From assembly GCA_017551025.1 (NCBI GenBank), contig JAFZNG010000030.1:1-34716 (forward strand): a stretch of DNA of 34,716 nucleotides, given 5' to 3'. Below the pieces are notes generated by a model. It had not been told where the DNA came from, made no database searches, and saw only the letters and a list, made by a program, of their open reading frames with translations. A program made the position numbers and the translations under genes. The first letter of the stretch is position 1. Every line of letters starts with the position of its first letter. Of this stretch, positions 2,811 to 32,580 are shown in pieces. Origin of the DNA: Paludibacteraceae bacterium. GTDB taxonomy: Bacteria > Bacteroidota > Bacteroidia > Bacteroidales > Paludibacteraceae.

Positions 2811-2835
2811 GGTGTAGGGTGTAGGGTGTAGGGTG
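2811..2835. repeat. Heptad array GGTGTAG
   Basis: Three and a half copies of GGTGTAG between the terminator and the stop codon of the four-helix-bundle gene. It is the inverted partner of the array at 3218-3242 (23 of 25 positions complementary). Confidence 0.85.
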
Positions 2836-3201
2836 TTATTCTTGTGGGAGATATTTTGAGCGGAGCGTAGATAACTGTCTGCTTATGGAATTAATCTTTG
2901 ACTCCACTTCTAAAAATTGTTCTTGACTAACATATCCTAGATCCACAGAAATATCCAGTTGGCTTTCCACTTCTTTCATTGAAGCATAAGCAATCTCCAA
3001 GAAATGGACCTTCTCTTTGGCTGAGTAGCGACTCATCCCTTCGGCAATATTTGACGTGACAGATATAGCAGCACGGCGTACTTGATCGCAAAGGGCATAG
3101 CGCTCTTCTGCCGGAAAAAACTTGAGCAGTTTATACACCTCTATCACCCATGCTTTGGCATCTTGATAGACATTCAACGTCCGATATGAGTATTCGTTCA
3201 T
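2836..3201 (-). CDS. Four-helix-bundle protein (23S intervening-sequence type)
   Basis: A 121-residue, wholly alpha-helical protein. It shows the family hallmarks LNVYQDAKAW near the N-terminus, then LCDQVRRAAISVTSNIAEG and a later FLEIAYASMKEVESQL. These match the family first found inside 23S rRNA intervening sequences and now known as free-standing genes in many Bacteroidota; its biochemical role is unknown. It begins 39 nt after the 1246-residue gene ends and shares its promoter and terminator. Inverted heptad arrays directly follow the stop codons of both the preceding gene and this gene, so the gene looks like an inserted cassette. The cassette idea is inference. Confidence 0.88.
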   Translation of the reverse strand: MNEYSYRTLNVYQDAKAWVIEVYKLLKFFPAEERYALCDQVRRAAISVTSNIAEGMSRYSAKEKVHFLEIAYASMKEVESQLDISVDLGYVSQEQFLEVESKINSISRQLSTLRSKYLPQE

Positions 3202-3217
3202 ATAGTATATATTTATA

Positions 3218-3242
3218 CACTCTACACCCTACACCCTACACT
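3218..3242. repeat. Heptad array CACCCTA (inverted partner)
   Basis: CACTCTA, CACCCTA and CACCCTA in tandem, abutting the TAG stop of the 1246-residue gene. It is the reverse complement, with two mismatches, of the array at 2811-2835. Confidence 0.85.
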
Positions 3243-6200
3243 ATTCCACCAGGACGCCGGTAGGCGTATAGGTCTTGTCGCCACGGCGGATATAGATCAT
3301 GCCATTGATTAGGACCTTGATTGCCTCGTAATTACCACGTATATTGTCTAGGATGCCATCGGTCTTGGGAGTAGCGCGATAGGTTGCCGTATAGGTCGCG
3401 TCGCTTGTCACCTTCGTCAGTCGCGGACTCCAGCCGGCGAACGTATAGGTATATTCCTCGTCCGGCTCCTTGGTCGGCACGACGGCCGTACTCGGTACTT
3501 GTCCGTACGCCACCTCAGCCCGATCGAGCTCCGTGCCGTCCTCATCCAGGAAGATAATAGTATAACTATTTACCGTACTCTCATACGTTGCCGTATAGGT
3601 CGCATTGCCGTCCACAACCGCCAACTCCGGCGTCCAACCGGCAAAGGTATAGGTATATTGCGCCGTACGCGGACGGACGGGTTCCGCACCGTCGTAGGAC
3701 GGCATCGTGCCATACGGCACGTTGCTGCGCTGGAGTTCGGAGCGGTCGTAGTTGCGGAAGATAATCGTATACTCGTTATAATGCACCGTATAGGTGGGCG
3801 TATAACTGGCATCGTCCGTCACCGGCGCGATCTCCGGATACCAGCCTGCGAAACTATAGTAGCAATGCTCCTCTGCGTTGCGACCGGGGATATAGTTGGT
3901 GGACGGCGTCGCACCGTACGGCAAGGTCATCCGATCGATCTCCGTCACGCCATCCTCGAAGTAGAAGATGACGGTATAGGTATTCACTACGCTGTCAAAG
4001 ACAGCGGTGTAGGTAGCTTCGCCCGTTACGGCTACAGGCGCTACATCCCAACCCACGAATGAATAACTATATTGCGCATCAGAGGGTTGAGAGGGGGTGG
4101 CGCCGGTATAGGTCGGCACGAGGCCGTACTCTACTGCCGTGCTCTGGAGCACCTCATCGCCATTCTTGAAGGTGATAGTATAGGTTTTCTTCGTCGCAGT
4201 GAACGTCGCCGTATACGTCGCCTCGCCCGTTACTGCCACCGGCGTTAGATCCCAACCGCTGAAGGTATAGGTATACTCATCGGTCTCCGGTTTGGTCGCA
4301 TCCGCATGCGTGGGGACAACGCCGTACAATACCATCGTCTGGTCGATTTGCGTGTTATCGTCGTTGAGCCAGGTGATCGTATAGGTATTAACCGAACAGC
4401 CATATATGGCTGTATACACTCTATCTTCAGTTACGGCACTGAGTTCACTATCCCAGCCGTTGAACGTGTATGTGTATTGTGCATCGGCGTTTTTAATAGG
4501 TGTAGCGCCATTGTACGTGGGTATGACTCCGTACTCTACCGAAGTGCTTTGAAGAACCTCATCGCCATTCTTGAAGGTGATGGTATAAGACCTTGTGGTA
4601 GCGCTATACGTAGCGATATAGGTTGTATTGCCGGTAACGGCGCTCAGTTCTTTATCCCAACCGCTGAACGTATAGGTGTATTGCGCATCTTCTTCGCGCG
4701 ACGGCTGCTCCCCCGTAAAGGAAGGAACCTGCCCCTCTTCCAGTCTCGAGGAAGTGATCTCCGTTCCATCGTAGTCCACAAAGCGGATCGTGTAATAATG
4801 CAGGTCGCAAGCATACATATAATGTTGGAGTGCATAGGATGTTACTGCACAGTTACTACCGGTAGCGTCCAACTGCTCACGAAGCCGTCCTCCTTCCGCA
4901 TCAGCATCATAGGTGGTTTTGTTGATTGAGGTCATACACCATTGACTATCTGATGCTACCCATCCGTATCTCATCGTTTCGATAGTTCTACCCTTGCTGT
5001 CATAGGTATTTATTACCTTGGTATCGTAATACCAACCGGCAGTCTTATTGTACCGCCAATCGATTTGCTCCTTAATTTTACTACCCTCATAGGTATAATC
5101 GTGTCGGAGCATTCCTATCCATTGCCAATCGGTATAATCCCATTTATACGAATAGGATGTTACTTTTATGCCATTCTCATACACATCTTCCGAACTTGAG
5201 AGCCCTTCCCAATCATTCTGAGTTGCATTCCATTTATAAGAAGAAGTCTTAACTTGACGATTTGTTGCATCATACGCTTTCTCCGTTCGCGAAATGCCTA
5301 CCCAAACATTAGCTGTTTTATTCCAAGTTAAATAATCATTCAGGGTTTCTAAATTCTTATTGCCGTCCTTATAGGCATAGTGGCGACGTACATTATTTAT
5401 CCACCCAGTATTGTTCACCCAACTATAGGTATCCGACTGAGTCACATTGCCCGATGCATCATATTCCTTGGTTTCCCGTTTTACACCCTTCCACTTATTC
5501 GTGGTAGACGTCCATTTCATCGATACATCTTCCGTCATCAACTCCTTTCCAGCAATCGTAGCATATGCCAGTTCACGAGTCGTGGAGTCCGTTGAGATCC
5601 ACGCAGAGCCATTCAAAACAGTAACTACCGATAAAGTATTGATATTCTTTGCATCATAGGTATTAACCGTCCTTGCGCTGTCCTGCCATGCACCATTTCG
5701 CCATGCCCGTGCATAGCTCTCCATGAGACGAGTAGATTGATACGTGTTGGTTACTTGCGACACGTTCACCCAAGCCGAACTTTTCCAAACCGACTTCGTC
5801 TGTACGCTAATCCGAGAACTAGTACCATCATACTGGGTTTCGGTTTTGGTATTATGCACCCAGCCGTTCGACCATTTCCATACGATTTCCGAAAGCACAA
5901 GCGTACCAGAATAGGTTTTGGAGGTACGCGTCTTACCCACCCAAGCATTACTCCAGGTATAGGTCGCGTTATCCATCACGTTATCACCATCATAGGCATT
6001 CGTAATACGCGTATTATTCTGCCAAATCTTCGAAGTATTATTCCACTTATAGGCAATATGCTCGGTCTCTTTCTTTTGGGCATTGAACGTAGCCGTATAT
6101 TTAGAAGACCCCTTCCATACGCCATTGGTCATACCTGAATATTTTTCCTCCAGGACCTTGTTTCCAGCGGCATCGTAGTTATAGACATTCTTGGTACTAC

Positions 6201-6981
6201 CCACCCAAGCGCCGTTGGAATAGGACGAGTAATATTCATACAACGTTTGAGCGCCCGAGGTGTTGTAGTCATAAACAAACTTAGACGAGCCCACCCAAGC
6301 GCCATTGGCATAACTGCCGTACAGGACATCCAAAATCAACTGACCGGCGGCACTGTAGGTCTTCTCACGACGTTGTCCATGCTCCAATTGACCTGCCGCA
6401 TTGCGAGCGTAAGTCGTATATTCCGTCTCACGTCCTGCTGCGTCATAGACGTAAGTCTGCTTAGATACCGCAGACCACGCCCCGTTGAGCCAGTCGAAGA
6501 CCGTCGTAGCCGTATTCTTACCATCCGTAAACTCATACTCGGTCTTTGCATTACCTATCCAATTGGAGGTAGTATTATCCCAAACATAAGTAGAAGTCAT
6601 CACCTGAATACTACCCTCGTACCGATCTTCCTTCTTCGTCTTGCCGACACGTGAACCATCCGCATTGACGGTCCAAACAACTTCGCTGATGGTATGACCG
6701 GCATCGTCATACGCAAAGATGGTCACTTCCGTTAGTACCGAGTCGATATTAAAGATGAAAATAGAATCTGTAGGACAAGATGCTGCGGCGGCAGAGCGCA
6801 TCGGCGCACGCAGCACCTCAGGATTAACAGGCGCCACATACCACTCGGGATCGGAAATCGTATCCACCGACAGCGTATCTGTCATCAGCGTATCTGTATC
6901 GAAAACCAACTCATTTGCCCACAACGAGACACTGCTTAGCAACTGCGTCACCAGTATCAGGATGGCACTCAATCGTTTCAT
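3241..6981 (-). CDS. Large secreted repeat protein: YD-like array, seven InlB B-repeats, type IX-like tail
   Basis: A 1246-residue surface or secreted protein. A signal peptide (to about residue 23) precedes a spacer and then, from roughly residue 75 to 720, an array of about 40-residue repeats with the pattern 'NGAWVG...VYxYDAAGN', resembling YD-type beta-sheet repeats. From about residue 740 to 1205 there are seven repeats of 67-70 residues (YTITF...YG..P......YTYTF.GW...VT....YTATY), the Listeria-Bacteroides (InlB B-repeat, Flg_new) family. It ends GMIYIRRGDKTYTPTGVLVE, the tail shared with three other proteins here. No enzymatic domain is visible; InlB-type repeats usually make stalks in adhesins. 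It is first in a two-gene transcript from the promoter at 7035-7066. It is not an Rhs toxin: no Rhs core or C-terminal toxin follows the array. Confidence 0.85.
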   Translation of the reverse strand: MKRLSAILILVTQLLSSVSLWANELVFDTDTLMTDTLSVDTISDPEWYVAPVNPEVLRAPMRSAAAASCPTDSIFIFNIDSVLTEVTIFAYDDAGHTISEVVWTVNADGSRVGKTKKEDRYEGSIQVMTSTYVWDNTTSNWIGNAKTEYEFTDGKNTATTVFDWLNGAWSAVSKQTYVYDAAGRETEYTTYARNAAGQLEHGQRREKTYSAAGQLILDVLYGSYANGAWVGSSKFVYDYNTSGAQTLYEYYSSYSNGAWVGSTKNVYNYDAAGNKVLEEKYSGMTNGVWKGSSKYTATFNAQKKETEHIAYKWNNTSKIWQNNTRITNAYDGDNVMDNATYTWSNAWVGKTRTSKTYSGTLVLSEIVWKWSNGWVHNTKTETQYDGTSSRISVQTKSVWKSSAWVNVSQVTNTYQSTRLMESYARAWRNGAWQDSARTVNTYDAKNINTLSVVTVLNGSAWISTDSTTRELAYATIAGKELMTEDVSMKWTSTTNKWKGVKRETKEYDASGNVTQSDTYSWVNNTGWINNVRRHYAYKDGNKNLETLNDYLTWNKTANVWVGISRTEKAYDATNRQVKTSSYKWNATQNDWEGLSSSEDVYENGIKVTSYSYKWDYTDWQWIGMLRHDYTYEGSKIKEQIDWRYNKTAGWYYDTKVINTYDSKGRTIETMRYGWVASDSQWCMTSINKTTYDADAEGGRLREQLDATGSNCAVTSYALQHYMYACDLHYYTIRFVDYDGTEITSSRLEEGQVPSFTGEQPSREEDAQYTYTFSGWDKELSAVTGNTTYIATYSATTRSYTITFKNGDEVLQSTSVEYGVIPTYNGATPIKNADAQYTYTFNGWDSELSAVTEDRVYTAIYGCSVNTYTITWLNDDNTQIDQTMVLYGVVPTHADATKPETDEYTYTFSGWDLTPVAVTGEATYTATFTATKKTYTITFKNGDEVLQSTAVEYGLVPTYTGATPSQPSDAQYSYSFVGWDVAPVAVTGEATYTAVFDSVVNTYTVIFYFEDGVTEIDRMTLPYGATPSTNYIPGRNAEEHCYYSFAGWYPEIAPVTDDASYTPTYTVHYNEYTIIFRNYDRSELQRSNVPYGTMPSYDGAEPVRPRTAQYTYTFAGWTPELAVVDGNATYTATYESTVNSYTIIFLDEDGTELDRAEVAYGQVPSTAVVPTKEPDEEYTYTFAGWSPRLTKVTSDATYTATYRATPKTDGILDNIRGNYEAIKVLINGMIYIRRGDKTYTPTGVLVE

Positions 6982-7034
6982 TATCTTATTGCGCGAGACT
7001 AATCAAATTATTACAAAAAAACAATATTCGGGCG

Positions 7035-7066
7035 CAAAAGTACAAAAAATATCCCAAATACGCAAA
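7035..7066 (-). promoter_or_regulatory. Bacteroidota promoter for the large repeat protein
   Basis: On the minus strand TTTGCGTAT (from 7066) and the −7 box TACTTTTG (7042-7035). The spacing matches the other promoters here. Confidence 0.8.
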
Positions 7067-7093: not shown

Positions 7094-7125
7094 AAAAAAA
7101 ATGCACACGAGAGGTGCATTTTTTT
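7094..7125 (-). terminator. Terminator of hipBA
   Basis: AAAAATGCAC and GTGCATTTTT arms around the loop ACGAGAG, flanked by A and T runs. It differs from the hairpin at 2779-2810 by one loop base. Confidence 0.85.
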
Positions 7126-7167
7126 GGTGTAGAGTGTAGGGTTTATGGTGTATGGTGTATGGTGTAT
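7126..7167. repeat. Heptad array GGTGTAG / GGTGTAT
   Basis: Six heptads (two GTGTAG-type, one GGTTTAT, three GGTGTAT) fill the space between the terminator and the hipA stop codon, touching the stop's last base. Confidence 0.85.
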
Positions 7168-12620: not shown

Positions 12621-12983
12621 GTTTTTCCGCAAAAAAATTTTTTGCCTATATATAATTAGATATAGATACTATACTATATAATGCAGCCTTAATCCCTTCA
12701 AATCCTTCCCTCCGCACAGCAAAATACTCCAAGATGGCAAATGTTATGCGAATACATTTCGAAATGCATACGATTTTGCCGTTCGCAATGAATTTATGCG
12801 GAATTTTATCATTTCATAGCCCTCTCTCGGGCACAGAGGCTGAGAAGAAATAAATCAATGGCGTGCGAAGGGATGGTAATGGTGGAAAATATGCGTTTCG
12901 TCACTATATGACGCATTTTATCGTCTGCAATAGGTTGTTTAGTCGGTTTTTGACAGATAATTGGAGAGAAAAAACAGAAAGAG
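12621..12983. other. 363-bp gene-free region between divergent promoters
   Basis: No ORF with coding character is visible. It holds an AT-rich TATA-type tract (about 12645-12682) and a segment at 12819-12875 with a weak resemblance to TPP-riboswitch motifs (GGCTGAGA, GCGAAGGGA). An imperfect inverted repeat (ATGCG ... CGCAT, about 12891-12916) is also present. Otherwise I see nothing assignable; a small RNA cannot be excluded. Confidence 0.4.
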
Positions 12984-13014
12984 TTGCGTATGTGGAAAAA
13001 AAGTAGTAATTTTG
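12984..13014 (+). promoter_or_regulatory. uvrA promoter
   Basis: TTGCGTATGT (from 12984), 20 nt, then the −7 box TAATTTTG (13007-13014). The start of transcription should be near 13019, only about 5 nt before ATG 13024, so the mRNA may be almost leaderless. Confidence 0.8.
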
Positions 13015-13023
13015 CAGTCTAAA

Positions 13024-15687: not shown

Positions 15688-15718
15688 ATTAAAAATTAAA
15701 AATTCAAAATTAAAAATT
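15687..15718. repeat. Heptad array AATTAAA at the uvrA/antiporter junction
   Basis: AATTAAA twice, AATTCAA, AATTAAA, then AATT. Its first base is the last base of the uvrA stop codon, and its end supplies the first two bases of the TTG start of the next gene. Confidence 0.9.
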
Positions 15719-21997: not shown

Positions 21998-22027
21998 CAA
22001 AGGTACAACAAAATTTGCATATATCAA
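21998..22027 (-). promoter_or_regulatory. tsaD promoter
   Basis: On the minus strand TTGATATATG (from 22027) and the −7 box TACCTTTG (22005-21998). It overlaps the divergent waaA promoter, so the two may compete. Confidence 0.8.
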
Positions 22028-22045
22028 AAAAAAGTAGTACTTTTG
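22015..22045 (+). promoter_or_regulatory. waaA promoter
   Basis: TTGCATATATC (from 22015), 20 nt from the TTG, then the −7 box TACTTTTG (22038-22045). Transcription should start near 22050, before ATG 22069. Confidence 0.8.
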
Positions 22046-22068
22046 CGCGATATTTATCATGCGAGAGT

Positions 22069-23286
22069 ATGCACTTTTACTTTTTTATACTAAAAATAGC
22101 TGCTTTTTTCGGTCATAAGCGTGCCCGTCGGTTGGTGAAGGGTCAGGCACAAGGGATGCGTGACATCCGTGCCTATCTGGCGGCTCACCCCGAGCGCACA
22201 CTGGAGGGTTGTGTATGGTTTCATGCCGCCTCGGTAGGTGAGTTCGAACAGGCCCGTCCGATCATCGAGCGGCTTCGTGAGGAGCAACCCCACCGCGTTA
22301 TCCTGCTAACTTTCTTCTCGCCTTCGGGCTACGAGATGCGCAAGACGTACGACAAGGTGGACTTGGTAACCTACCTGCCTTTCGCTACGCGCCGCAATGC
22401 CAAGCGGTTTGTAGAACTGGTAAAGCCCTCGATGGCGGTCTTCGTCAAGTACGAGTTCTGGCCGGCCTATATTCGTCAGTTGAGTCAGCGCAAGATCGCC
22501 TTGTACTCCGTAGCGTCTATCTTCCGCGAGCAGCAGTATTTCTTCCGCTGGTACGGCGGAGCAGAGCGTAAGTTGCTCAAGCAGTTCACCCATCTCTTTG
22601 TGCAGGACCAGGCCTCGATCGACCTGTTGAAGCGTTACGGTATTACCCAGACGAGTCTCTCTGGCGACACGCGTTTCGACCGCGTGACGAGTATCGCGGG
22701 GCATGCCAAGTCGATACCGGAGGTGCAGCAGTTCGTGAAAGGACAGCAACAGGTCATCGTAGCCGGTAGTACTTGGCCGGAGGACGAAGCCCTATTGCAT
22801 CGTTATCTGGAGGAGCACCCGGAGGTACGTCTTATCCTGGTGCCCCACGAGATAGACCGTGCCCATCTGCACGGCATCTTCCATCTCTGGAAGGGACGTC
22901 ATGTCCTGCTCTCTGAGGCGGACAGCAAGAACCTGCAACATACGCGTACGCTGGTGGTGGACCGTATGGGTCTGCTCAGCTCGATCTACCAGTACGGCCA
23001 CGTAGCTTACGTCGGTGGCGGTTTCGGCGACGGTATCCACAACACGATCGAGGCAGCCGTCTATGGTCTGCCGGTTATCTTCGGTCCGAACTACCGCCAT
23101 TTCCGTGAGGCGATAGCCCTAATCGAGCATGGCGGCGGCCGCAGCATCAGCAATTACGACCAACTGGCTGCAGCCATCGACGAGCTGCTCAGCGATCGCC
23201 ATACGGCCGGCCGCAATGCGGCCAGCTACGTAGAGTCGGAACTGGGAGCGACAGCAAAAATCTACGGAAAGATTTTTGCGAATTAA
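22069..23286 (+). CDS. waaA: 3-deoxy-D-manno-octulosonic-acid (Kdo) transferase
   Basis: A 405-residue glycosyltransferase (GT30) that adds Kdo to lipid A precursor at the inner membrane. An N-terminal hydrophobic segment ([12 protein letters not shown]) anchors it. The catalytic HAASVGE motif, the [11 protein letters not shown] and [10 protein letters not shown] segments, and the nucleotide-sugar-binding end [29 protein letters not shown] (in pieces) are all present. ATG 22069 is chosen because the −7 box at 22038-22045 excludes an earlier in-frame start at 22015. Its stop codon is inside a heptad array, and hisS starts 31 nt later in the same transcript. Confidence 0.95.
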
Positions 23287-23315
23287 AAATTCAAAATTAA
23301 AAATTACAAATTATA
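23281..23315. repeat. Heptad array AATTAAA at the waaA/hisS junction
   Basis: AATTAAA, AATTCAA, AATTAAA, AATTACA and AATTATA. The waaA stop codon TAA is part of the first unit; the hisS ATG follows 2 nt after the last. Confidence 0.9.
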
Positions 23316-23317
23316 TC

Positions 23318-24622
23318 ATGGCACAAAAACCAAGTATACCTAAAGGTACTCGCGACTTCGGCGCCCTGGAGATGGCGCGTCGCAATTATATCTTCGACAC
23401 CATCCGCAGTGTGTTTGCGCTCTACGGCTTCAGCCAGATAGAGACGCCGGCGATGGAGAATATCTCCACCCTGATGGGTAAGTACGGCGAGGAGGGAGAC
23501 AAACTCCTCTTCCGCATTCAGAACAGCGGTGAGAAAGCTACCCAGGCACCTGAGAAGGGTCTGCGCTACGACCTGACCGTTCCGTTTGCCCGTTATGTGG
23601 TGCAGCACCGCGAAGAACTCAGTTTCCCCTTCAAGCGCTACCAGATCCAACCCGTCTGGCGTGCCGACCGTCCGCAGAAAGGACGCTATCGTGAGTTCTA
23701 CCAGTGTGATGTAGATGTGATCGGTAGTGACAGCCTGGTGGGCGAACTGGAACTGATCCAGATCGTCGAGGAAGTGTACCGTCGTCTGGGTATTCGTGTC
23801 TGCCTGCATATCAACAACCGTAAGGTGCTGGCCGGTATTGCCGAGGTAATCGGTGCACCGGATAAGATGGTGGATATCACCGTCGCTATCGACAAACTGG
23901 ACAAGATCGGCGTGGAGGCCGTCAACCAAGAACTCGTCGAGCGCGGACTGAGCAATGAGGCCGTAGCGGCGCTGCAACCTATTCTGAACCTTAGCGGCAC
24001 AACGGCCGAGAAACTGACTGCCCTGCGCACGATTCTCGCGAACAGCGAAGTAGGCCTGAAAGGCGTAGACGAACTAGAAGAGGTCTTCCGTCTGGTAGGC
24101 GAGACCAGCCTAAACATCGAGTTAGACTTGTGTCTAGCGAGAGGTCTGAACTACTATACAGGGGCTATCTTCGAGGTCAAGGCGCTGGATGCCCAGATAG
24201 GCAGTATCACGGGGGGCGGTCGCTACGACAACCTGACGGGTATCTTCGGTATGCCGGGTGTATCGGGCGTAGGTATCTCGTTCGGTGCGGACCGTATCTA
24301 CGACGTACTGACCGAACTCAATCTCTTCCCCGAAGCACTGCAGTCGGGCACGAAGGTGCTGTTCACCACCTTCGGTCAGAACGAACTCACGATGGCGCTC
24401 ACGTGGGCGAAGGCTTTGCGCCAAGAGGGTATCGCCGTAGAGGTCTATCCCGAACCCACGAAGATGAAGCGCCAGATGACGTATGCCGACCAGAAATCCA
24501 TCCCTTGGGTGGCGATCATCGGTGGGGATGAGTTGGCGCAGCAGAAGGTGATGCTCAAGAACATGACGAGCGGTGAGCAACGCCTCGTAGCGCTCGACGA
24601 ACTGAAACAAATCTTGCGTTGA
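23318..24622 (+). CDS. hisS: Histidyl-tRNA synthetase
   Basis: A 434-residue class II synthetase that charges tRNA-His. It has the opening KGTRDFG, motif 2 around [19 protein letters not shown], the histidine-binding RGLNYYTG and GGGRYDNL segments, and a C-terminal anticodon-binding domain ([11 protein letters not shown] onwards). ATG 23318 is chosen over an upstream TTG at 23276, which lies inside waaA and the repeat. It is co-transcribed with waaA and probably with the peptidase genes downstream, as no terminator is visible in the 44-nt gap. Confidence 0.97.
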
Positions 24623-24666
24623 AAGAAATCCTTAAAATTTACATACTACTTTTTTTAATCATTTTT

Positions 24667-26025
24667 ATGAATCGTTTTTCATTATTTCTTGTAGCGATCC
24701 TGTTGCTCTCGAGTACCGGTTTCGCTCAGCAACGATCGGCGGAAGAAGCCGCCGCGCTCGCTGCTCAATTTGTGAACGGGGAACCCGCTTTGCGCCGTGT
24801 CCACCGTGCCCCGCAGACTGCCGCAGAGATGCGGTTGGTGCACACCCGTCAGAAAGCCTCTCGTGAGGAGAATGCTTTCTATATCTTCAACCGTGCCGAC
24901 AATGCCGGCTTTATCATCGTCTCGGCCGATGAACGTACGGCTGACGAAGTGATCGCTTATAGCGAAGAGGGACAATTCGACATGCAGACGGTCAATCCGA
25001 ACCTGCGCTGGTGGCTGGAGCGCATGGAAGCGGAGATATCGTCGATACCTGAGGAGACGGAGGTCAATCCCGCTCCCCAGATCGATCCGGCAGAACCGAT
25101 CACGCCTATCGCACCCCTGCTGAAGAATGCCAACGGTCAGGCCATCAACTGGTATCAGGAGACGCCGTACAACAACCTCTGTCCGATGGATCAGCGCGAC
25201 AACACGCGTTGCCTCACGGGTTGCGTAGCTACGGCCGCGTCGATGGTGATGTATAAATGGCAATGGCCCAAGAAAGGTTCGGGGCAGAGCAGTTATACCT
25301 GGTACGACTGCAAGGACGACTACTGCAACCGTTACTGGACCCAAAACCTCTCTGCCAACTACGGCGAGACCACCTACGACTGGGAGCATATGTTGCCCTC
25401 GTATGATGGTAAGGACTACAGCGCGACCCAGGCCAATGCAGTAGCCACGATTATGTACCACGCCGGCGTTGCCAGCGAGATGCAGTACGGCGGCCAGGCC
25501 ACGGGTGGTTCGGGTACGCTGACCGATAAGATGGCCTACGGTCTGATCACCTATTTCGGGTATAAGATCGATAAGTTCATCTCGATGTACTCCAGTTGGA
25601 CGTATGGCGGTGCCCATTCGGGTGTGAATGCCGAGTGGAACGTGACGACCGACCAGATCACCGAGTATTTCAATGCCGACCTGGAAGCCGGTCGCCCGAT
25701 TATCATGGGTGGCGAAGACAGTTCGAGCGGTGGTCATGAGTTCGTATGCGACGGTCGTGATAAGAACGGTCGCTTCCATATTAACTGGGGATGGGAAGGT
25801 GACGGCAATTGCTACACGGCGCTGACCACCATGAGGCCGACGATGACTACGTATAACTTCAACGGCGGACTGGATGCTATCATCGGTCTGGAGCCCAACA
25901 CCCCCGAGGCCGTAGAGCAAACCACGGTTGTGCCCGAGGCGGAGAAAGTGCTACGCGACGGCCAAATCCTTATCCAACGCGGAGAGAAGACCTACACTCT
26001 GACGGGGCAAATCATTAAGAATTAA
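24667..26025 (+). CDS. Secreted C10-family cysteine peptidase with type IX-like tail
   Basis: A 452-residue streptopain-type (C10) peptidase. A signal peptide (cleaved near GFAQ) is followed by an inhibitory Spi-like propeptide (about residues 21-150, with FIIVSADERT). The catalytic domain has Cys186 in LTGCVATA, His357 in SSGGHEFVCDG, and the NWGW loop. It ends GQILIQRGEKTYTLTGQIIKN, the tail shared by three other proteins here, implying outer-membrane export. The true start is ATG 24667; an upstream TTG at 24619 overlaps the hisS stop. It is followed 16 nt later by a paralog. C10 peptidases of Bacteroidales include Porphyromonas/Prevotella interpain-like enzymes that degrade host proteins; the substrate here is unknown. 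Confidence 0.9.
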   Translation: MNRFSLFLVAILLLSSTGFAQQRSAEEAAALAAQFVNGEPALRRVHRAPQTAAEMRLVHTRQKASREENAFYIFNRADNAGFIIVSADERTADEVIAYSEEGQFDMQTVNPNLRWWLERMEAEISSIPEETEVNPAPQIDPAEPITPIAPLLKNANGQAINWYQETPYNNLCPMDQRDNTRCLTGCVATAASMVMYKWQWPKKGSGQSSYTWYDCKDDYCNRYWTQNLSANYGETTYDWEHMLPSYDGKDYSATQANAVATIMYHAGVASEMQYGGQATGGSGTLTDKMAYGLITYFGYKIDKFISMYSSWTYGGAHSGVNAEWNVTTDQITEYFNADLEAGRPIIMGGEDSSSGGHEFVCDGRDKNGRFHINWGWEGDGNCYTALTTMRPTMTTYNFNGGLDAIIGLEPNTPEAVEQTTVVPEAEKVLRDGQILIQRGEKTYTLTGQIIKN

Positions 26026-26043
26026 AAATTAAAAATTAAAAAT
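26020..26043. repeat. Heptad array AATTAAA between the C10 genes
   Basis: Three AATTAAA units and a fourth begun as AAT. The first gene's TAA stop (26023-26025) and the second gene's ATG (26042) both fall in the array. Confidence 0.9.
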
Positions 26044-28111
26044 GAGAAAATTATTTCTGGGCTTGGTAGCCCTTTTGGTGTCGCTGACACTTTCGGCAGA
26101 GCGCGTATCGCTCGACGACGCAACGCTCGTAGCCAATAATTTCATGAACCCTGCCACCTCGTCGATGACGAAGAAAGCTATGCCGGCTAAGCGCATGGTC
26201 CACAAGGCTGTCGCAGAAGACAACCTCTATTACGTATACCAGAATGCCGATGGCGAAGGCTGGGTGATCGTAGCTGCTAACGATGCCGTAACGCCTATCC
26301 TGGCGTATTCCGAGACCGGTACGTTCCGTACCGATAACCTGCCCGTCAACGTGCGAGCATGGATGGGAAAGTACAATAACTTCATTCGCAAGATCGAATC
26401 CGACGGCGTAGAAGCTACGGAAGAGACCAAGGCTGAGTGGCGCTCGCTGCGCAAGGGTGTGCGTCGTGCTACGTCGGCTGTGGTAGTGGGTCCGCTGATT
26501 CAGACCCAGTGGGATCAGGACGCACCCTACTATAACCTCTGCCCGGGAACGGGTAGCAACAAGGCCTATACGGGTTGTGTAGCTACGGCGATGGCACAGG
26601 TGATGAAGTACTGGGAGTGGCCTGTACAGGGTACGGGTAGCCACTCCTACCGTCCGCTGGACGTCAATAATCCCTATAATGAATATACGGGTCAGCCTAA
26701 TTACTCGAGCCGTTATACCAGCACTTTGTCTGCTAACTTCGGCCAGACCACCTACGACTGGGCACATATGCTCAATTCCTATTCCGGCACGTACACCAAC
26801 ACCCAGGCTACGGCTGTGGCTACACTGATGTACCACTGCGGTGTCGCTACCGAGATGATGTACGGCAACGATGCCGACGGCGGTTCGGGAACCTACACCG
26901 GCAACTATGGTGATGAGGAAGACCACCAGTGCGCTCAGAACGCACTTTGGATGAACTTCGGCTATAAGAAATCCACCCTCACCAGCTATATGCGTGACGG
27001 CTACGAGTATGAAGGTACCACTTACTACCAGAGTTGGACGGATGCCAACTGGACGGCGATGATCAAGGCCGAACTGGACCTACAGCACCCGATTATGTAC
27101 GGCGGCGCCAGCAGTCAAGGTGGTCACAGCTTTATCTGCGACGGTTACCGCGACGACAACTACTTCCACTTCAACTGGGGATGGTCGGGTAGCAACGACG
27201 GTTATTATAAGCTCTCGAGTCTCCGTCCTGGTAGCGGCGGTGCCGGAGGTGGTAGCTATAACTTCTCCGAGGATCAGGACGTAATCATCGGTATCGTGCC
27301 CGACCGCGAGGACACGCCGCAAGAGCCCGACACCGTTATATGGTCGGTTCAGGGCGTAGAGACTCCGGTAGAATATACCCACAATAGTGCCCTCGTACTG
27401 CCCACCGAACCGGCTGACTGCGAATGCGGTCGCGTATTCGTAGGATGGACGGCACAGAGCACCATCACCAACGGCCAGAAACCCAACGATCTCTTCACCG
27501 AGGCTGGCAGCAAGCGCGTGACCGCCAACGTCACCTACTATGCTGTCTTCGCTACCCAAGAGGGCACCGGCACCGCCAGCGTAGAGTCCACCATCGTATT
27601 TGCTAACCAGGGATATCAAAACGCACAGGACATCACGGAGGTGGCCATGGATAACTGCACGCTGACGTTCTCCAAAGGCACCAACACCCAAAACGCGCCT
27701 AAATACTATGACAGCGGAGCTGCTGTGCGTTGCTATAAGAACAACACCCTGACGGTCAGCTCAGAGAATACTATTACAAAAATCGCATTCACCAACGTAA
27801 CCAACTACGACGGCGTCGTAGTAGCCAATGTAGGTACCTATAGTGGAACGACATGGACGGGTAGTTCGAATTCCGTGACGCTGACCAACGCACCGTCTGA
27901 CAACTCTCAATGGCGTATCACATCTATCAAGGTGACCACCGGTGGCGGCACATCCTACACCGGCTATACGCTCAATTGCAATTGCGGTGGTGCAGGTACG
28001 GAGCAGATCAACCTGCAACCCGCTACACGCAAAGTCATCTACAACGGACAGGTATATATCCTGCGCGAAGGACGCACCTATACCCTGACGGGACAGGAAA
28101 TTAAAAATTAA
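26042..28111 (+). CDS. Second secreted C10-family cysteine peptidase, with extra C-terminal domains
   Basis: A 689-residue paralog of the upstream gene. A signal peptide (MRKLFLGLVALLVSLTLSA) precedes a Spi-like propeptide (YYVYQNADGEGWVIVAANDAV, in pieces). The catalytic domain has Cys179 in YTGCVATAMAQ, His362 in GGHSFICDG and the NWGW loop. After about residue 430 there is an InlB-like piece (FVGWTAQ), a beta-rich domain (TITKIAFTNVTNYDG) and the tail GQVYILREGRTYTLTGQEIKN. The tail's last residues and stop are encoded by a heptad array. It begins 16 nt after its paralog, so both are probably made from one transcript. Confidence 0.9.
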   Translation: MRKLFLGLVALLVSLTLSAERVSLDDATLVANNFMNPATSSMTKKAMPAKRMVHKAVAEDNLYYVYQNADGEGWVIVAANDAVTPILAYSETGTFRTDNLPVNVRAWMGKYNNFIRKIESDGVEATEETKAEWRSLRKGVRRATSAVVVGPLIQTQWDQDAPYYNLCPGTGSNKAYTGCVATAMAQVMKYWEWPVQGTGSHSYRPLDVNNPYNEYTGQPNYSSRYTSTLSANFGQTTYDWAHMLNSYSGTYTNTQATAVATLMYHCGVATEMMYGNDADGGSGTYTGNYGDEEDHQCAQNALWMNFGYKKSTLTSYMRDGYEYEGTTYYQSWTDANWTAMIKAELDLQHPIMYGGASSQGGHSFICDGYRDDNYFHFNWGWSGSNDGYYKLSSLRPGSGGAGGGSYNFSEDQDVIIGIVPDREDTPQEPDTVIWSVQGVETPVEYTHNSALVLPTEPADCECGRVFVGWTAQSTITNGQKPNDLFTEAGSKRVTANVTYYAVFATQEGTGTASVESTIVFANQGYQNAQDITEVAMDNCTLTFSKGTNTQNAPKYYDSGAAVRCYKNNTLTVSSENTITKIAFTNVTNYDGVVVANVGTYSGTTWTGSSNSVTLTNAPSDNSQWRITSIKVTTGGGTSYTGYTLNCNCGGAGTEQINLQPATRKVIYNGQVYILREGRTYTLTGQEIKN

Positions 28112-28126
28112 AAATTAAGAATTAAA
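28099..28126. repeat. Heptad array AATTAAA at the C10/DUF1599 junction
   Basis: AATTAAA twice, AATTAAG, AATTAAA, then the bases leading into ATG 28128. The upstream stop codon is within it. Confidence 0.9.
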
Positions 28127-28127
28127 A

Positions 28128-28664
28128 ATGGCTAATACAGCACAGCAATTCGACCAGGTGACGGCTAAGTGCCGTGAGATATTCGTGAATAAGATGCAGG
28201 ACTACGGTGCCTCGTGGCGCATCTTCCGGCTGCATGGCATCACCGACCAACTGTATATCAAGGTCTGCAACATACGCCAGCGTCAGGAGACGGGTGTGAG
28301 TCTCGTAGGCGATGACATCGAGGGTAACCTGCGTGCCATCATCAACTACGGCGTCACGGCCATCATCCAGGCGCGGCGTGGCTATAGCGATGCTATCGAT
28401 ATGAGCAACGACGAGGCAATGCAGACCTATGATGCTGTGCTGGCAGAGACCAAAGAACTGATGCTTCGCAAGAATCATGACTACGGAGAAGCCTGGCGCG
28501 AGATGTCGAAAGAGGGCATCGTAGACATGATTCTGGCGAAAGTCATCCGCATCAAGACCATCCTCGAGCACGAGGGTAAGACCGTCGCGTCGGAAGGCGT
28601 AGAGGGCAACTATTTCGATATTATTAACTACGCTATCTTCGACCTGATCCATTATGAAAGCTAA
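28128..28664 (+). CDS. DUF1599 protein (tandem-duplicated fold)
   Basis: A 178-residue cytosolic protein. It contains two copies of the same segment: KMQDYGASWRIFRLHGITDQ at about residues 24-43 and KNHDYGEAWREMSKEGIVDM at about 120-139, each followed by an Ile-Arg-rich stretch. This internal duplication is the mark of DUF1599, which has been linked to nucleotide chemistry but has no settled function. It overlaps the next gene by 11 nt (ATGAAAGCTAA), which implies coupled translation with the DoxX-like protein, a pairing I recall as common in Bacteroidales. Confidence 0.85.
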   Translation: MANTAQQFDQVTAKCREIFVNKMQDYGASWRIFRLHGITDQLYIKVCNIRQRQETGVSLVGDDIEGNLRAIINYGVTAIIQARRGYSDAIDMSNDEAMQTYDAVLAETKELMLRKNHDYGEAWREMSKEGIVDMILAKVIRIKTILEHEGKTVASEGVEGNYFDIINYAIFDLIHYES

Positions 28665-29799
28665 CAAGCCATTCGCCTCTAACCATTCGCCATTCGCCAT
28701 TATCGGCCACTGTAGCCGATTATTGATCGCCGCCGTATTCCTCTTCTCGGGTGCGGTGAAAGCCATCGACCCGCTGGGAACGGTATATAAGATAGAGGAC
28801 TATCTGAAGGCCTTCGGCGGGTTTATGACCGAACTGCTGCCACTGGCGACGGTGGCTGCCGTATGCCTGATATGCGTGGAGTGTCTCCTGGGCGTTGCGA
28901 TGCTACTGAATATCCGTACGCGTTGGACGGCATGGCTGTCGCTGGTGTTCTATATGGTGATGACGCCTCTTACGCTTTGGATCGCCCTGACCAATCCGGT
29001 CTCCGACTGCGGTTGCTTCGGCGATGCACTGGTGCTCACCAACTGGCAGACCTTCTATAAGAACGTCGTGCTGCTCGCGCTGGTCATCGTACTGCTCCTA
29101 TGCATGAAGCGCATGCACAACCCCTGGAAATGGCCCTTGGAACTGATGGTGATGAGTCTGGCCTTGGCGGGTGTGCTGACCCTGATGGCATGGACCCATT
29201 TCCACCTGCCGTTGATAGATTTCCGTCCGTACCGGATCGGCAATAACCTGCCCGAACAGATGGAAGGCGGCCGCGCACCCATGGTGGATTATGTCTTCGT
29301 GTACGAACGCAACGGCGAGCGCCAGGAGTTCACCACCGACAGTCTGCCCTCTAAGGACGAGGGTTGGCAGTTCGTAGAGCGCCATGACGTGATCATCGAA
29401 GAGGGCATCGAGGCACCGGTGCACGACTTCGAACTCACCCGTTGGTTTGACGGCGAAGTGATTACGGACGATATCCTCACATCGGAAGAACCCGTGACGC
29501 TTATCGTCATGTACGATATCCAAAAGGCCGACCGTGAGCAGTATCAGAAGATCGTCCATCTGTTCGAAGAGACCCCGTCACCCATTTATATCCTAACGGG
29601 TTCGAACGATGACGAGATTGAGGCCCTGATGAGCGATCTGGAGGCACTCTCGGATGAGTCGCTGCGCAGTCGTATTGAGGAGGAAGCACTCTGCACCGCC
29701 GATCCCGTCATGCTCAAGACCATCGTTCGTGCCAACCCGGGTGTCTTCGTGCTGCAAAACGGCACCGTCATTGATAAATATAATTTACGAAATCGATAG
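28654..29799 (+). CDS. BT_3928-like protein: DoxX/MauE membrane domain with thioredoxin-like C-terminus
   Basis: A 381-residue protein. Four membrane helices of the DoxX/MauE type occupy about residues 20-150 (FLFSGAVKAIDPLG; the redox-type motif SDCGCFGDALVLTNW), another helix follows near 160-178, and the last 170 residues are soluble and thioredoxin-like without a CxxC motif. This matches the family named after B. thetaiotaomicron BT_3928; its reaction is unknown. The first 19 residues (MKANKPFASNHSPFAIIGH) come largely from a heptad array and look like an addition to the family's usual start. ATG 28654 overlaps the DUF1599 stop. Confidence 0.85.
   Translation: MKANKPFASNHSPFAIIGHCSRLLIAAVFLFSGAVKAIDPLGTVYKIEDYLKAFGGFMTELLPLATVAAVCLICVECLLGVAMLLNIRTRWTAWLSLVFYMVMTPLTLWIALTNPVSDCGCFGDALVLTNWQTFYKNVVLLALVIVLLLCMKRMHNPWKWPLELMVMSLALAGVLTLMAWTHFHLPLIDFRPYRIGNNLPEQMEGGRAPMVDYVFVYERNGERQEFTTDSLPSKDEGWQFVERHDVIIEEGIEAPVHDFELTRWFDGEVITDDILTSEEPVTLIVMYDIQKADREQYQKIVHLFEETPSPIYILTGSNDDEIEALMSDLEALSDESLRSRIEEEALCTADPVMLKTIVRANPGVFVLQNGTVIDKYNLRNR
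28668..28702. repeat. In-frame heptad array GCCATTC in the DoxX-like gene
   Basis: GCCATTC, GCCTCTA, ACCATTC, GCCATTC and GCCATTA. These are reverse complements of the GCGAATG-type units in uvrA. It encodes the N-terminal PFASNHSPFAI. Confidence 0.85.
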
Positions 29800-29808
29800 T
29801 AGGCCATT

Positions 29809-29836
29809 TTGAATTTTTAATTTTTAATTTTTAATT
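29809..29836. repeat. Heptad array TTTAATT (inverted orientation)
   Basis: TTGAATT and three TTTAATT units, the reverse complement of the AATTAAA arrays elsewhere, between the DoxX-like gene and the AraC gene. Confidence 0.9.
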
Positions 29837-29841
29837 CGAAT

Positions 29842-30918
29842 TTGACTCATCAAATTCTCATATCGCTTCCGATGATGGTATGCCTGTTTTGGGGCATCTA
29901 TTTCCTGATTCGGTTGTTTCGTCCCGAACCCGAGCGGCGCGTAACGGCAACGCTCGTGCTGTTCTACGCCGCAGCTACGGTGCTGTATCTCGACCACTGG
30001 CTCTATTTCTCGGGCATAGTGCGCGTATGGGGCGAATGGAGTTACGGCATCGTCAATCTGCTCGTATATCCTCTTTATTATACGTACCTGCGTGCGCTCA
30101 CGCGTGCGAATAGGGGGGGGCGTGAACTAATCGCACTCTTCTCGTTTGCCTTGCCGGGTGTCGTGCTCTTTCCGATAGGACGCTATACTGCGTTGCTAAG
30201 CGATGCGCAGACTTTTCTCATCATCCGTCTATGCTTTGCCCTGCAAGTCGTGTGGGTACTGGTGCGCGGCTACCAATTGCTTCGGCATACGATTCGCCGT
30301 ATGGACAACACCTACTCCGACGACCGCAGCCGACTCTTGCGTCCTACCCACAACCTGCTGATCCTATTCGGCATCACCTCCGCAGTCTCGATGATTCTCA
30401 ACGTCCTCGGACGGGAGTTCTTCACCCACGAAGCCTCGGTCAGCCTTCCGGCCGTCGTCATGTCGGTGCTGCTATACGGTCTTGGGTTTGTGGCAGCCCA
30501 TACCACGCTGCCTGCGGAGACGGTCAACGAAGAGACGGCGGGGGAAAGCCTACCGGCTACGGACAAAGAAGAGACCTCGGAACTGATTCGCCGCATCGAC
30601 ACCATCATGCGTGAGCAGTTACTCTATACCAATGCCGGGCTGACCATCCAGGACCTGGCGGTCGCCGTAGGTAGCAACCGCACCTACGTGAGCAATGCCA
30701 TCAACCGCACGTATCACATCAGTTTCTCGCAGTACGTCTCGCGTCAGCGCATAGCGTACGCCCAACTGATTCTAAAGGATCCGCGTTACCGCACCGACAA
30801 GGCGGCAGTCAGCGACGCGATCTCTTTGAGCGGCTTTGCCTCCGACCAAACCTTCTACCGCGTCTTCAAAGACCTCACCGGCCAAACACCCCTGCAATAT
30901 AGAAAGGCGAATGGCTAA
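29842..30918 (+). CDS. Membrane-anchored AraC-family transcription regulator
   Basis: A 358-residue protein. About residues 5-215 contain around six or seven hydrophobic helices (ISLPMMVCLFWGIYFLI; LIALFSFALPGVVLFPIG; LPAVVMSVLLYGLGFVAA). A linker leads to an AraC helix-turn-helix pair at about 255-355 (LTIQDLAVAVGSNRTYVSNAIN; AISLSGFASDQTFYRVFKDLTGQTPLQYR, in pieces). Such fusions sense a signal at the membrane and act on nearby or distant promoters. The start is TTG 29842; ATG 29872 is an alternative that keeps the first helix. The last residues KANG and the stop come from a heptad pair. Its targets are unknown. Confidence 0.85.
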   Translation: MTHQILISLPMMVCLFWGIYFLIRLFRPEPERRVTATLVLFYAAATVLYLDHWLYFSGIVRVWGEWSYGIVNLLVYPLYYTYLRALTRANRGGRELIALFSFALPGVVLFPIGRYTALLSDAQTFLIIRLCFALQVVWVLVRGYQLLRHTIRRMDNTYSDDRSRLLRPTHNLLILFGITSAVSMILNVLGREFFTHEASVSLPAVVMSVLLYGLGFVAAHTTLPAETVNEETAGESLPATDKEETSELIRRIDTIMREQLLYTNAGLTIQDLAVAVGSNRTYVSNAINRTYHISFSQYVSRQRIAYAQLILKDPRYRTDKAAVSDAISLSGFASDQTFYRVFKDLTGQTPLQYRKANG

Positions 30919-30920
30919 TG
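30907..30920. repeat. Heptad pair GCGAATG/GCTAATG at the AraC gene end
   Basis: Two units that encode the C-terminal Ala-Asn-Gly and the TAA stop of the AraC regulator. Confidence 0.65.
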
Positions 30921-30925
30921 GTGGA

Positions 30926-30949
30926 TTTTAGTATCTCAATGTACTAAAA
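30926..30949. other. AT-rich stem-loop after the AraC gene
   Basis: TTTTAGTA (30926-30933) and TACTAAAA (30942-30949) are perfect 8-bp arms with an 8-nt loop. It may be a weak terminator or a protein-binding site; there is no long T run. Confidence 0.45.
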
Positions 30950-30962
30950 ATTGACAAAAATT

Positions 30963-30978
30963 AGTACTTCCAAGTACT
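30963..30978. promoter_or_regulatory. Palindromic operator candidate, ATPase gene 1
   Basis: AGTACTT, CC, AAGTACT: 7-bp arms with a 2-nt centre, 16 nt upstream of the −33 element. The same site lies at 33904-33919 before ATPase gene 2. Confidence 0.65.
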
Positions 30979-30994
30979 TTTACAATAAAAATAC

Positions 30995-31025
30995 TTGCAT
31001 ATATCAGAAAAAATCTGTACCTTTG
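30995..31025 (+). promoter_or_regulatory. Promoter of ATPase gene 1
   Basis: TTGCATATATC (from 30995), 20 nt from the TTG, then the −7 box TACCTTTG (31018-31025). A block of about 40 nt (30988-31027) is identical to 33928-33967. Confidence 0.85.
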
Positions 31026-31027
31026 CA

Positions 31028-31110
31028 GCCGAAAATGTGATTTTTTGCATCAAAACATATGCCGAAAATGTGATTTTTCATACAAAAACAATGCCGAAAA
31101 TGTGATTTAG
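31028..31110 (+). repeat. Three copies of an 18-bp leader repeat with mini-ORFs
   Basis: Copies of GCCGAAAATGTGATTT begin at 31028, 31061 and 31093 (spacing 33 and 32 nt). Copies 2 and 3 read ATG CCG AAA ATG TGA (Met-Pro-Lys-Met-stop); copy 1 reads TTG CAG CCG AAA ATG TGA. The third stop codon ends 9 nt before the ATPase ATG at 31115. A fourth copy is at 33854. Confidence 0.85.
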
Positions 31111-31114
31111 CATT

Positions 31115-32455
31115 ATGGAAATGCTTGAAAGAAAGATAGATACGTATCTTGCGAACTGGAAGAGTAACCCTAAGCGCAAGCCGCTAATCGTCAAAGGTGC
31201 TCGTCAGGTGGGCAAAACGGAGTCCATTCGGGCGTTCGGAAAAGCCAACTATGAGTCGGTAATCGAAATCAACTTTGTGCTTCAAAAGAAGTTCAGAGCC
31301 ATTTTTGATGACGGCTACGAGGTAGAAACGATTATCAAGAACATCTCGATGGTGGATCCTTCTTTAAAGTTTATTCCCTATAAGACCCTACTCTTCTTCG
31401 ACGAGTTGCAGAAATGTCCGGACTGTGCGACCTCGCTCAAATCATTCTGCCTGGACGGACGTTATGACGTCATTTGTTCCGGTTCGCTCATGGGCATCTA
31501 TTACGAAGAGATTGAATCCAATGCGGTCGGCTTCAAAGAAGACTATGAGATGCATTCGATGGATTTTGAAGAGTTCCTATGGGCGAAAGGTTATGGGCGT
31601 GAGCAGGTAGAAGATATGTATCAACATATGATTACTTTGCAGCCCTTCTCCCAACTGGAGTTGGACACACTCATGGATATTTTCCGCGAGTATATGACGC
31701 TCGGAGGAATGCCGGAAGTGGTGAAGAAATTCATAGATAACGGACATTTTGAAGGCACATTGAAATTGCAACGCCAGTTGTTGAAGGACTACGAAGAGGA
31801 CATTACCAAATACGCCAAAGAAACCGACAAGGCAAAGATCTTGGCGGTATATAATCATATCTCTACCTTCTTGGCAAAGGAGAATAAGAAGTACCAGATT
31901 ACCAAAATTGCCAAGGGTGCTCGCAATAGAGAATATATCGGTGCAGTAGATTGGTTGAGTGCTGCCGGAGTGATCAATACGTGTTACTGCTTGAACAACG
32001 TCGAACTGCCCTTGAAAGGCAATTACGATGCGGATTACTACAAACTCTATTATCACGACACGGGTCTGTTGATTGCCTCGCTGGACGAGGAAGCACAGGA
32101 AGACCTGCGCGCCAATAAGAATTTCGGCACCTATAAGGGTGCCATCTACGAGAATGTAGTGGGCGAGATGCTTATCAAGTCCGGCTACGAACAACTGTAT
32201 TTCTACCGGCACGACAATCCGTCGTTGGAAATGGACTTTTTCGTACGCGATGCCGATTCGCTAATCCCTGTTGAGGTCAAAGCCAAAGACGGCGCAACCG
32301 CTTCGCTCAATAATCTCATTAAATGGGATTCGTACCCCGACGTGAAATACGGAATTAAGTTGGGCTATAAGAACATTGGTTGGAATGACCGGTTCTATAC
32401 TTTCCCCTATTTCTTGACTTTCCTGCTCAAGCGTTTTCTAAAGGAACGAAAGTAA
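31115..32455 (+). CDS. AAA-type ATPase with DUF4143 / nuclease-like C-terminus (1)
   Basis: A 446-residue P-loop ATPase of the AAA_14/DUF4143 class. Walker A is GARQVGKT (28-35), Walker B LLFFDELQK (92-100), and a sensor-like ICSGSLMGI follows. The C-terminal half is the DUF4143 region; Asp374 (EMDFF) and Glu387-Val-Lys389 (PVEVKAK) look like a PD-(D/E)XK nuclease-type core. These proteins are abundant, often multi-copy, in Bacteroidota; no function is established. Base composition is more AT-rich than the housekeeping genes nearby. It has its own promoter with a palindrome upstream and the 18-bp repeats in the leader. I see no terminator after it. Confidence 0.88.
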   Translation: MEMLERKIDTYLANWKSNPKRKPLIVKGARQVGKTESIRAFGKANYESVIEINFVLQKKFRAIFDDGYEVETIIKNISMVDPSLKFIPYKTLLFFDELQKCPDCATSLKSFCLDGRYDVICSGSLMGIYYEEIESNAVGFKEDYEMHSMDFEEFLWAKGYGREQVEDMYQHMITLQPFSQLELDTLMDIFREYMTLGGMPEVVKKFIDNGHFEGTLKLQRQLLKDYEEDITKYAKETDKAKILAVYNHISTFLAKENKKYQITKIAKGARNREYIGAVDWLSAAGVINTCYCLNNVELPLKGNYDADYYKLYYHDTGLLIASLDEEAQEDLRANKNFGTYKGAIYENVVGEMLIKSGYEQLYFYRHDNPSLEMDFFVRDADSLIPVEVKAKDGATASLNNLIKWDSYPDVKYGIKLGYKNIGWNDRFYTFPYFLTFLLKRFLKERK

Positions 32456-32500
32456 AATACACTTTTTTACGATTTGAGAGTGGGTTTTTACGATGTGCGA

Positions 32501-32530
32501 TTGCTTTTTGATAAAAAAGCAGTACCTTTG
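32501..32530 (+). promoter_or_regulatory. Promoter of the lipoprotein pair
   Basis: TTGCTTTTTG (from 32501), 19 nt from the TTG, then the −7 box TACCTTTG (32523-32530). The −33 extension differs from the other promoters here. Confidence 0.75.
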
Positions 32531-32547
32531 TGCGTTGTATTGTTATA

Positions 32548-32580
32548 AATTAAAAATTCAAAATTAAAAAATCAAAATTA
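32548..32580. repeat. Heptad array AATTAAA in the lipoprotein leader
   Basis: AATTAAA, AATTCAA, AATTAAA and a degenerate fourth unit, between the promoter and ATG 32588, so it is transcribed as a 5' leader. Confidence 0.85.

Follow-up and report, generated by a model that had tools for sequence, protein, structure and literature searches.

Why should short tandem arrays built from unrelated sequences, scattered along a single bacterial contig, all repeat every 7 nt? The question is raised by contig JAFZNG010000030.1 of a Paludibacteraceae bacterium (GCA_017551025.1), whose entire 34,716 nt (51% GC) is called the window here and which is contig 25 of a 1.94 Mb genome in 36 contigs, 95% complete (G000). 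Its closest uvrA relatives are Paludibacteraceae or Bacteroidales metagenome genomes, many of them named after ruminant gut compartments. We found that the period is constant, that the repeated units (words) are largely private to genomes and that each genome reuses its own small vocabulary at unrelated sites beyond chance; at the same sites in close genomes, arrays are present or absent and variable in their words. The window was scanned with Tandem Repeats Finder (TRF) and with a mismatch-tolerant period detector compared against 20 order-1 Markov copies. TRF returned 16 period-7 rows, corresponding to 15 places (the rows at 14650 and 14655 overlap), and the detector returned 12 period-7 arrays against a Markov mean of 0.1 (maximum 1), in agreement with the original prediction, made from the sequence alone, that many arrays in the window follow a 7-nt period. 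Elsewhere between periods 5 and 20, the detector exceeded one array only at the harmonic 14 (9) and at 15 (3), while exact runs of at least 10 numbered 10 at period 7, 2 at period 9 and 0 or 1 at the remaining non-harmonic periods up to 24. That prediction had counted at least 16 arrays, which is correct as a number of TRF rows, while robust arrays number only about 12; a CTTTTGT family that it had listed consists of single copies at 11, 79 and 20875 and a complement at 33990, with no tandem array of this word in the window. Nine arrays lie at gene junctions (2811, 3216, 7125, 15687, 23281, 26014, 28098, 29806 and 32543), four are in frame in uvrA (13670, 13932, 14197 and 14647) and one lies in the first codons of the open reading frame (ORF) starting at 28654.

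The excess extends well beyond the window, and the first of two outcomes that would have refuted the original prediction, a genome without a period-7 excess, was not observed. A 400 kb sample of G000 contained 91 period-7 arrays built from 30 words (exact runs of at least 10), against 33 arrays at period 14, 21 at period 21 and no more than 12 at any other period from 2 to 30; with runs of at least 12, the sample held 65 period-7 arrays and one Markov copy of it held none at any period. Across six genomes of the genus, period-7 arrays per Mb amounted to 228 (G000), 160 (G288), 145 (G081), 130 (G002), 50 (G190) and 33 (G014), and period 7 topped periods 4–24 in all but G014, where 33 per Mb compare with 40 at period 11 and 40 at period 14. 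Twenty control genomes from 18 other genera of the family gave four period-7 arrays in 293 kb (14 per Mb), two of them in G084, and an extra 100 kb each gave 8 in G084, 1 in G061, 1 in G515 (same class) and 0 in G093, although the composition of the controls is unmatched (34–45% GC, against 52% in G000). The period-7 excess is characteristic of the genus, with G014 a weak member, and is also present in at least one outside genome (G084, about 80 per Mb). A pool of 3.09 Mb (exclusive of L100, L101, L103, L093, L094 and L098, which belong to other groups, of L026, judged to come from the genome of G081, and of L043 and L054, covered by L274–L283) yielded 244 period-7 arrays as exact runs of at least 12; periods 11 (43) and 8 (33), which come next among the non-harmonic ones, are minor secondary peaks. 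The 240 pooled arrays comprised 83 words. Arrays most often measure 4–5 units (28–35 nt), as do 61 of 89 in G000, 24 of 32 in G288 and 29 of 57 in G081. A second preferred period of 11 nt was noted in the G000, G081 and G288 samples, and the 11-nt word AATCACCTACT was found in all three.

Some trivial explanations were set aside. The Markov-copy comparisons, in the window and in the G000 sample, rule out a chance origin. Codon-driven periodicity is ruled out too, since many arrays are intergenic and a 7-nt unit does not divide into whole codons, and an assembly artefact was judged out given that the loci come from independently named series (UBA, RUG, RGIG and others) and that the arrays are 20–40 nt long.

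A perfect triplet of AATTAAA was found at 44 places in G000 (23 forward and 21 reverse, by contig). In a family sample of 120 genomes, it was absent from the seven other members of the genus; 11 of the 120 contain it, with at most 6 hits each outside G000. Three copies of ACACCAT are found at 14 places (28 hits) in G000, the window array at 7125 included, and once each in two of the 119 other genomes. The words of G081, which has about 83% DNA identity to G000 in the rluD region, include AAAGTCG (12/58), AAAAGTC (7/58) and AACCCGT. Within genomes, the same-unit probability was 0.106 compared with a permutation mean of 0.048, a value reached in none of 2,000 label permutations, and sharing of units within genomes still exceeded the permutations without AAAAATT. 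Composite modules recur as well: 39 (overlapping) imperfect period-7 26-mers are present at three or more places each in the G000 sample plus the window, and 31-nt module identities were detected in G000, G186, G201 and G081. The composition and self-complementarity of the pooled words showed nothing beyond AT-richness, and GAATTAC, tried as a candidate widespread word, was found in only 5 of 296 genomes of the phylum.

Between related genomes, the arrays change at fixed sites. Eight orthologous sites could be mapped between G000 and G081; three had another word, five had no array and none had the same word. Fifteen locus pairs, 89–98% identical in their aligned parts, contained 68 arrays, of which 18 were dropped for unmappable flanks; among the 50 mapped, 14 were identical, 2 had the same word with a changed copy number, 9 had another word and 25 were without an exact run. 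A second set (100 kb from each of two genomes, 91.9% identical in aligned parts) had 10 of 11 arrays mapped: 3 identical, 1 with the same word and 6 without an exact run. With both sets pooled, the word was kept with changed copies in only 3 of 60 mapped arrays, these entries not being independent, as both members of a pair contributed their arrays and some loci appear in more than one pair. Five clean whole-array absences were recognized by eye (L057/L063, L049/L050, L072/L079, L277:17236 and L283:18169). At the uvrA stop codon, L072 carries a 35-nt ATCTGAA array that is lacking in L079 (94% identical) and L067 (89%) and that, by parsimony, was probably gained; ATCTGAA occurs at 14 places in the L072 genome (G587), at 9 in the L079 genome (G588) and at none in the other eight genomes searched. 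A loop of an rluD-like gene, compared in 15 aligned loci of which 5 were left out for their opposite orientation, contains period-7 stretches in 7 of the 10 informative loci, with words that differ by eye, and none in L158, L166 and L173. In G000, the ORFs of mutS (876 aa) and of the rluD-like gene (345 aa), both named from their sequences, stay open through ACACCAT arrays. A given site in a relative is thus frequently empty or filled with another word. Had the arrays been constant features of the genes beside them, the original prediction would have been refuted as well; they are not.

One explanation that could account for a common period is purely local: the DNA polymerase of this lineage would slip preferentially by 7 nt, arrays would grow from resident sequence and words would match solely through base composition. 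It is consistent with one period being shared by many words, with the clear single 7-nt steps in L025/L026 and L276 and with the heptamer excess in many bacteria, for which passages of PMC4679880 and PMC4692102 relay a polymerase-footprint proposal. However, private words recur at unrelated sites, and the array apparently gained in L072 has a lineage-private word. Close genomes, moreover, seldom differ by a single tandem unit: 17 pairs yielded 67 clean indels of 4–60 nt, of which 4 were tandem at any length and just 1 of these had a length of 7 nt. Array length also peaks at 4–5 units rather than decaying. We therefore regard local slippage by itself as unlikely, if still worth serious consideration.

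The gene uvrA (12961–15687, plus strand), which encodes UvrA interaction and ABC ATPase domains, combines coding and flanking sites. Its reading frame is open through four array sites, all on the plus strand: a GGCGAAT-type array (13670–13702), a degenerate GGCGAAT/GGCGAAAG array (13932–13967), a TCAGCCA array encoding SAISHQ (14197–14214) and, in a variable loop, a degenerate GGCGAA-type array followed by a CCATTAG-type one (14647–14719); the second and the fourth were reported by TRF only and missed by the stricter scan. An alignment of 40 of the 80 uvrA loci showed that four UvrA loops differ in array content between relatives. An AATTAAA array whose third unit is AATTCAA (15687–15718, plus strand) begins at the uvrA stop codon, where relatives have other words or none. 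Among the 80 sequences surveyed at the junctions (the window and 79 loci), the 3′ junction contained a period-7 array in 16, representing 13 words, a period-8 array in 3 and no other period among 4–13. On the 5′ side, 16 of the 80 sequences were scored, including L091, an artefact that was discounted because the region had been taken too long (it was shortened in the later 5′-site analysis); period 8 was found in 2 and period 11 in 1. Pyrimidine-rich period-7 arrays (CTTTC; TTTTC in L102) lie within about 100 nt upstream of uvrA in L055, L056, L060, L077, L095 and L102, directly upstream of a TACCTTTG-like element that we take to be a promoter motif. Near position 12600 of L050, the array at the uvrA 3′ end is lost; the stop codon of its relatives is missing at that position (read in the L049 frame), and the uvrA frame appears to continue.

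Such positions invite the idea that the arrays are selected cis-elements on which a heptamer-reading protein (cold-shock or S1-like) would act, whether as binding sites, as translation leaders or as elements of transcription. By a simple ORF rule, 40 of the 89 G000 arrays abut gene ends or starts, but 33 lie inside ORFs (15 of 57 in G081) and the other 16 elsewhere. Arrays adjoining the uvrA promoter contain TTTC in 6 of 6 cases and CTTTC in 5, L055 and L060 being 98% identical. At the uvrA stop site, 15 of 17 array units include a stop trinucleotide, whereas 51% of random words would do so; this is expected if only arrays that preserve the stop survive there. A comparable role is proposed for TAACTGA repeats in the part of PMC4679880 that concerns them. 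Nevertheless, the same site has different words in different species, arrays are missing in close relatives and orientation is mixed, as the AATTAAA counts show. A shared cis-regulatory role is thus improbable, and array positions are better taken as signs of site filtering and perhaps local regulation than of one function.

Two further routes could disperse arrays through a genome. A reverse transcriptase, telomerase-like or otherwise, might add units by copying RNA that itself carries 7-nt repeats; this would fit a strict 7-nt unit, a multiplicity of possible templates and a modal module length. The sole reverse transcriptase profile used, RVT_1 (PF00078), was not found in G000 (95% complete), G081 (100% complete) or the sparse G014; it scored above cut-off in G288 and G002 and below it in the sparse G190. 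As no RVT_1 match was obtained in G000 or G081, which rank first and third in array density among the six sampled genomes, the reverse transcriptase route seems to us barely credible. An ordinary mobile element, such as a miniature inverted-repeat transposable element, a repetitive extragenic palindrome-like sequence or a transposon remnant, might contain heptamer arrays by chance and would be dispersed, multi-copy and in both orientations, as the arrays are. In the printed listings, however, the flanks of same-word arrays look unrelated by eye, only the array being common, and neither a terminal structure nor a target duplication is evident by eye. We consider this origin very unlikely.

The explanation that we favour, and hold to be about as probable as its negation, is that these are heptanucleotide repeats of the short tandemly repeated repetitive (STRR) or long simple sequence repeat (LSSR) type, in which slippage in a 7-nt register is combined with copying between sites by ectopic template switching. 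The register would arise from replication slippage or misalignment. The growing strand end would switch briefly, at 7-mer homology, to an array at another site, copy part of it and then return, a process for which no reverse transcriptase would be necessary. Through template switching of this kind, the words of a genome would become more uniform, appear at new sites and supplant others at old ones. Arrays would sit where insertions are tolerated, namely, gene junctions and variable loops of conserved proteins, and would for the most part be under weak selection or none, affecting their surroundings by providing stop codons, leader sequence or promoter-flanking DNA. Slippage alone leaves unexplained the private words at unrelated sites, the verbatim composite modules, the rarity of single-unit steps and the mode of 4–5 units, all of which copying would explain; slippage with template switching is favoured on these grounds. 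The original prediction of one mechanism behind 7-nt repeats of differing sequence fits these data, and the mechanism itself is one that we infer. More tentatively, we suggest as a possibility, with the balance against it, that genome-wide copying moves 28–35-nt heptamer modules between sites, so that lineage-private 7-nt words are continually written and overwritten at gene junctions and protein loops.

Several observations weigh against this interpretation. The vocabularies are not wholly private: AAAAATT is the top word in G288 too, shorter or imperfect AATTAAA modules are present, in smaller numbers, in all four nearest relatives (G044, G186, G081 and G201), and GTCGAAA arrays were found in 9 of 10 genomes at differing densities. 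As the words are AT-rich (30% GC), composition could favour some of them. Turnover is incomplete, with 17 of the 60 mapped arrays identical between close genomes, and some of the 31 (of 60) classed as lacking an array by the exact-run criterion do retain a degenerate one. Losses also occur, as an array common to L049 and L042 is absent from L050, and two losses could therefore mimic the gain in L072. The orthologous arrays at L013:2302–2318 and L205:4912 keep a 7-8-7-7 layout with three units changed to the same new word, which suggests concerted change in place, by misaligned copying within the array, more readily than whole-array replacement. The common TTTC at the uvrA promoter hints at selection or ancestry there. 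Finally, a direct donor–recipient copying event was not observed among the compared genomes.

The remaining arrays of the window illustrate the range of sites. A GGTGTAG array (2811–2836, no strand assigned) lies between the stop codon of a gene for a 23S rRNA intervening-sequence protein (PF05635; 2836–3201, minus strand) and a terminator-like hairpin, and a TACACCC array (3216–3241, likewise unassigned) overlaps the end of the ORF at 3241–6981 (minus strand); the intervening-sequence-protein gene has heptamer arrays on both sides. A composite GGTGTAG/GGTGTAT array (7125–7167, unassigned) separates the end of a hipA-like gene from another terminator-like hairpin. The two hairpins (2780–2811 and 7095–7125) are nearly identical (AAAAAATGCAC...GTGCATTTTTT) and stand beside the two GGTGTA arrays after different genes. 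On the plus strand, an AATTAAA/AATTCAA composite (23281–23313) marks the junction of a glycosyltransferase gene (22015–23286) and a histidyl-tRNA synthetase gene (23276–24622), and an AATTAAA array (26014–26053) marks that between two peptidase C10 genes. These neighbours (24619–28111) each encode a Spi-type inhibitor domain (PF01640 and PF13734). Also on the plus strand, an AATTAAA array with an AATTAAG unit (28098–28129) ends at the ATG of a DUF1599 gene, its composite being found verbatim at other sites; a GCCATTC array (28668–28701) lies in the first codons of the ORF at 28654–29799 (MKANKPFASNHSPFAIIG); and an imperfect AATTAAA/AATTCAA array (32543–32580), also readable as period 14, lies upstream of the ORF at 32588. 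A minus-strand AATTAAA array (29806–29836) follows just past the stop of the 28654–29799 ORF. Elsewhere in the window, a near-identical pair of promoter-like regions (ACTTGCATATATCAGAAAAAATCTGTACCTTTGCA) at 30930–31130 and 33860–33990 contains the element GCCGAAAATGTGATTTTT, which is in tandem at 31028–31108.

Degenerate heptanucleotide arrays at many sites, with several words per genome and a mainly non-coding location, are known as STRR sequences in cyanobacteria. The arrays described here are likewise degenerate and dispersed over many sites, but they occur in an unrelated phylum, are not confined to non-coding DNA, as the ORF counts in G000 and G081 show, and were traced site by site between close genomes, both in whether an array was there and in which word it had. 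Heptanucleotide repeats of Calothrix and Nostoc are mentioned in PMC4692102. Passages of PMC4679880 and PMC4692102 cite the LSSR5-11 class of Mrazek 2007, tandem units of 5–11 nt beyond chance with heptamers the most abundant in most genomes, and attribute to that work the suggestion that a polymerase register or footprint causes the heptamer excess. Our arrays share the above-chance unit length of 5–11 nt and the predominance of heptamers (244 at period 7 against 43 at the next non-harmonic period), whereas they differ in the reuse of words at several sites of one genome, in the different words of related species and in a turnover that affects arrays as wholes. In Xanthomonas, as the relevant part of PMC4692102 describes, GGGAATC arrays number 186 and 183 in two genomes, with four units commonest, and lie mostly between the same genes in both while varying in length and sequence; that is one G-rich word family, whereas the 240 arrays pooled here use 83 words, and words are replaced from one species to another. 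The TAACTGA direct repeats of marine Beggiatoaceae, which number two to six copies per array, usually lie immediately before a start codon and are found in five Bacteroidetes too (PMC4679880, in its account of them), resemble ours as heptamer arrays of few copies and differ in being a single word; this word (canonical AACTGAT) was not in the unit lists of the six sampled genomes. Phase-variable contingency loci, whose copy number turns expression ON or OFF within a strain, offer another comparison; the array differences recorded here are all between genomes. High short tandem repeat density in Bacteroidota is reported in PMC12699852, whose main text does not use the word heptanucleotide. In a literature search that had most subscription papers outside its reach, private heptamer vocabularies in Bacteroidales were undescribed among the matches listed. 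The original prediction that such a multi-family set was undescribed there holds to that extent, but heptamer excess in bacteria at large is already known, as the cited passages of PMC4679880 and PMC4692102 indicate; what is new is that vocabularies are private and that arrays turn over as wholes.

The literature on heptamer excess since 2007, as represented in those passages, gives the polymerase-register idea without a test of it (PMC4679880, PMC4692102). With 178 genomes available, arrays that are dense, words that are private and sites that are filled in one close relative but empty in another, this genus makes local slippage and between-site copying separable. For the genes concerned, conserved uvrA, mutS and rluD-like sequences carry fast-changing loops encoded by heptamers, which is relevant to annotation and to loop evolution. 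If genome-wide copying proves true, word content in these bacteria would evolve in concert across the genome while the 7-nt register stays fixed, and the arrays would represent a form of mobile repeat that moves without a transposase or a reverse transcriptase.

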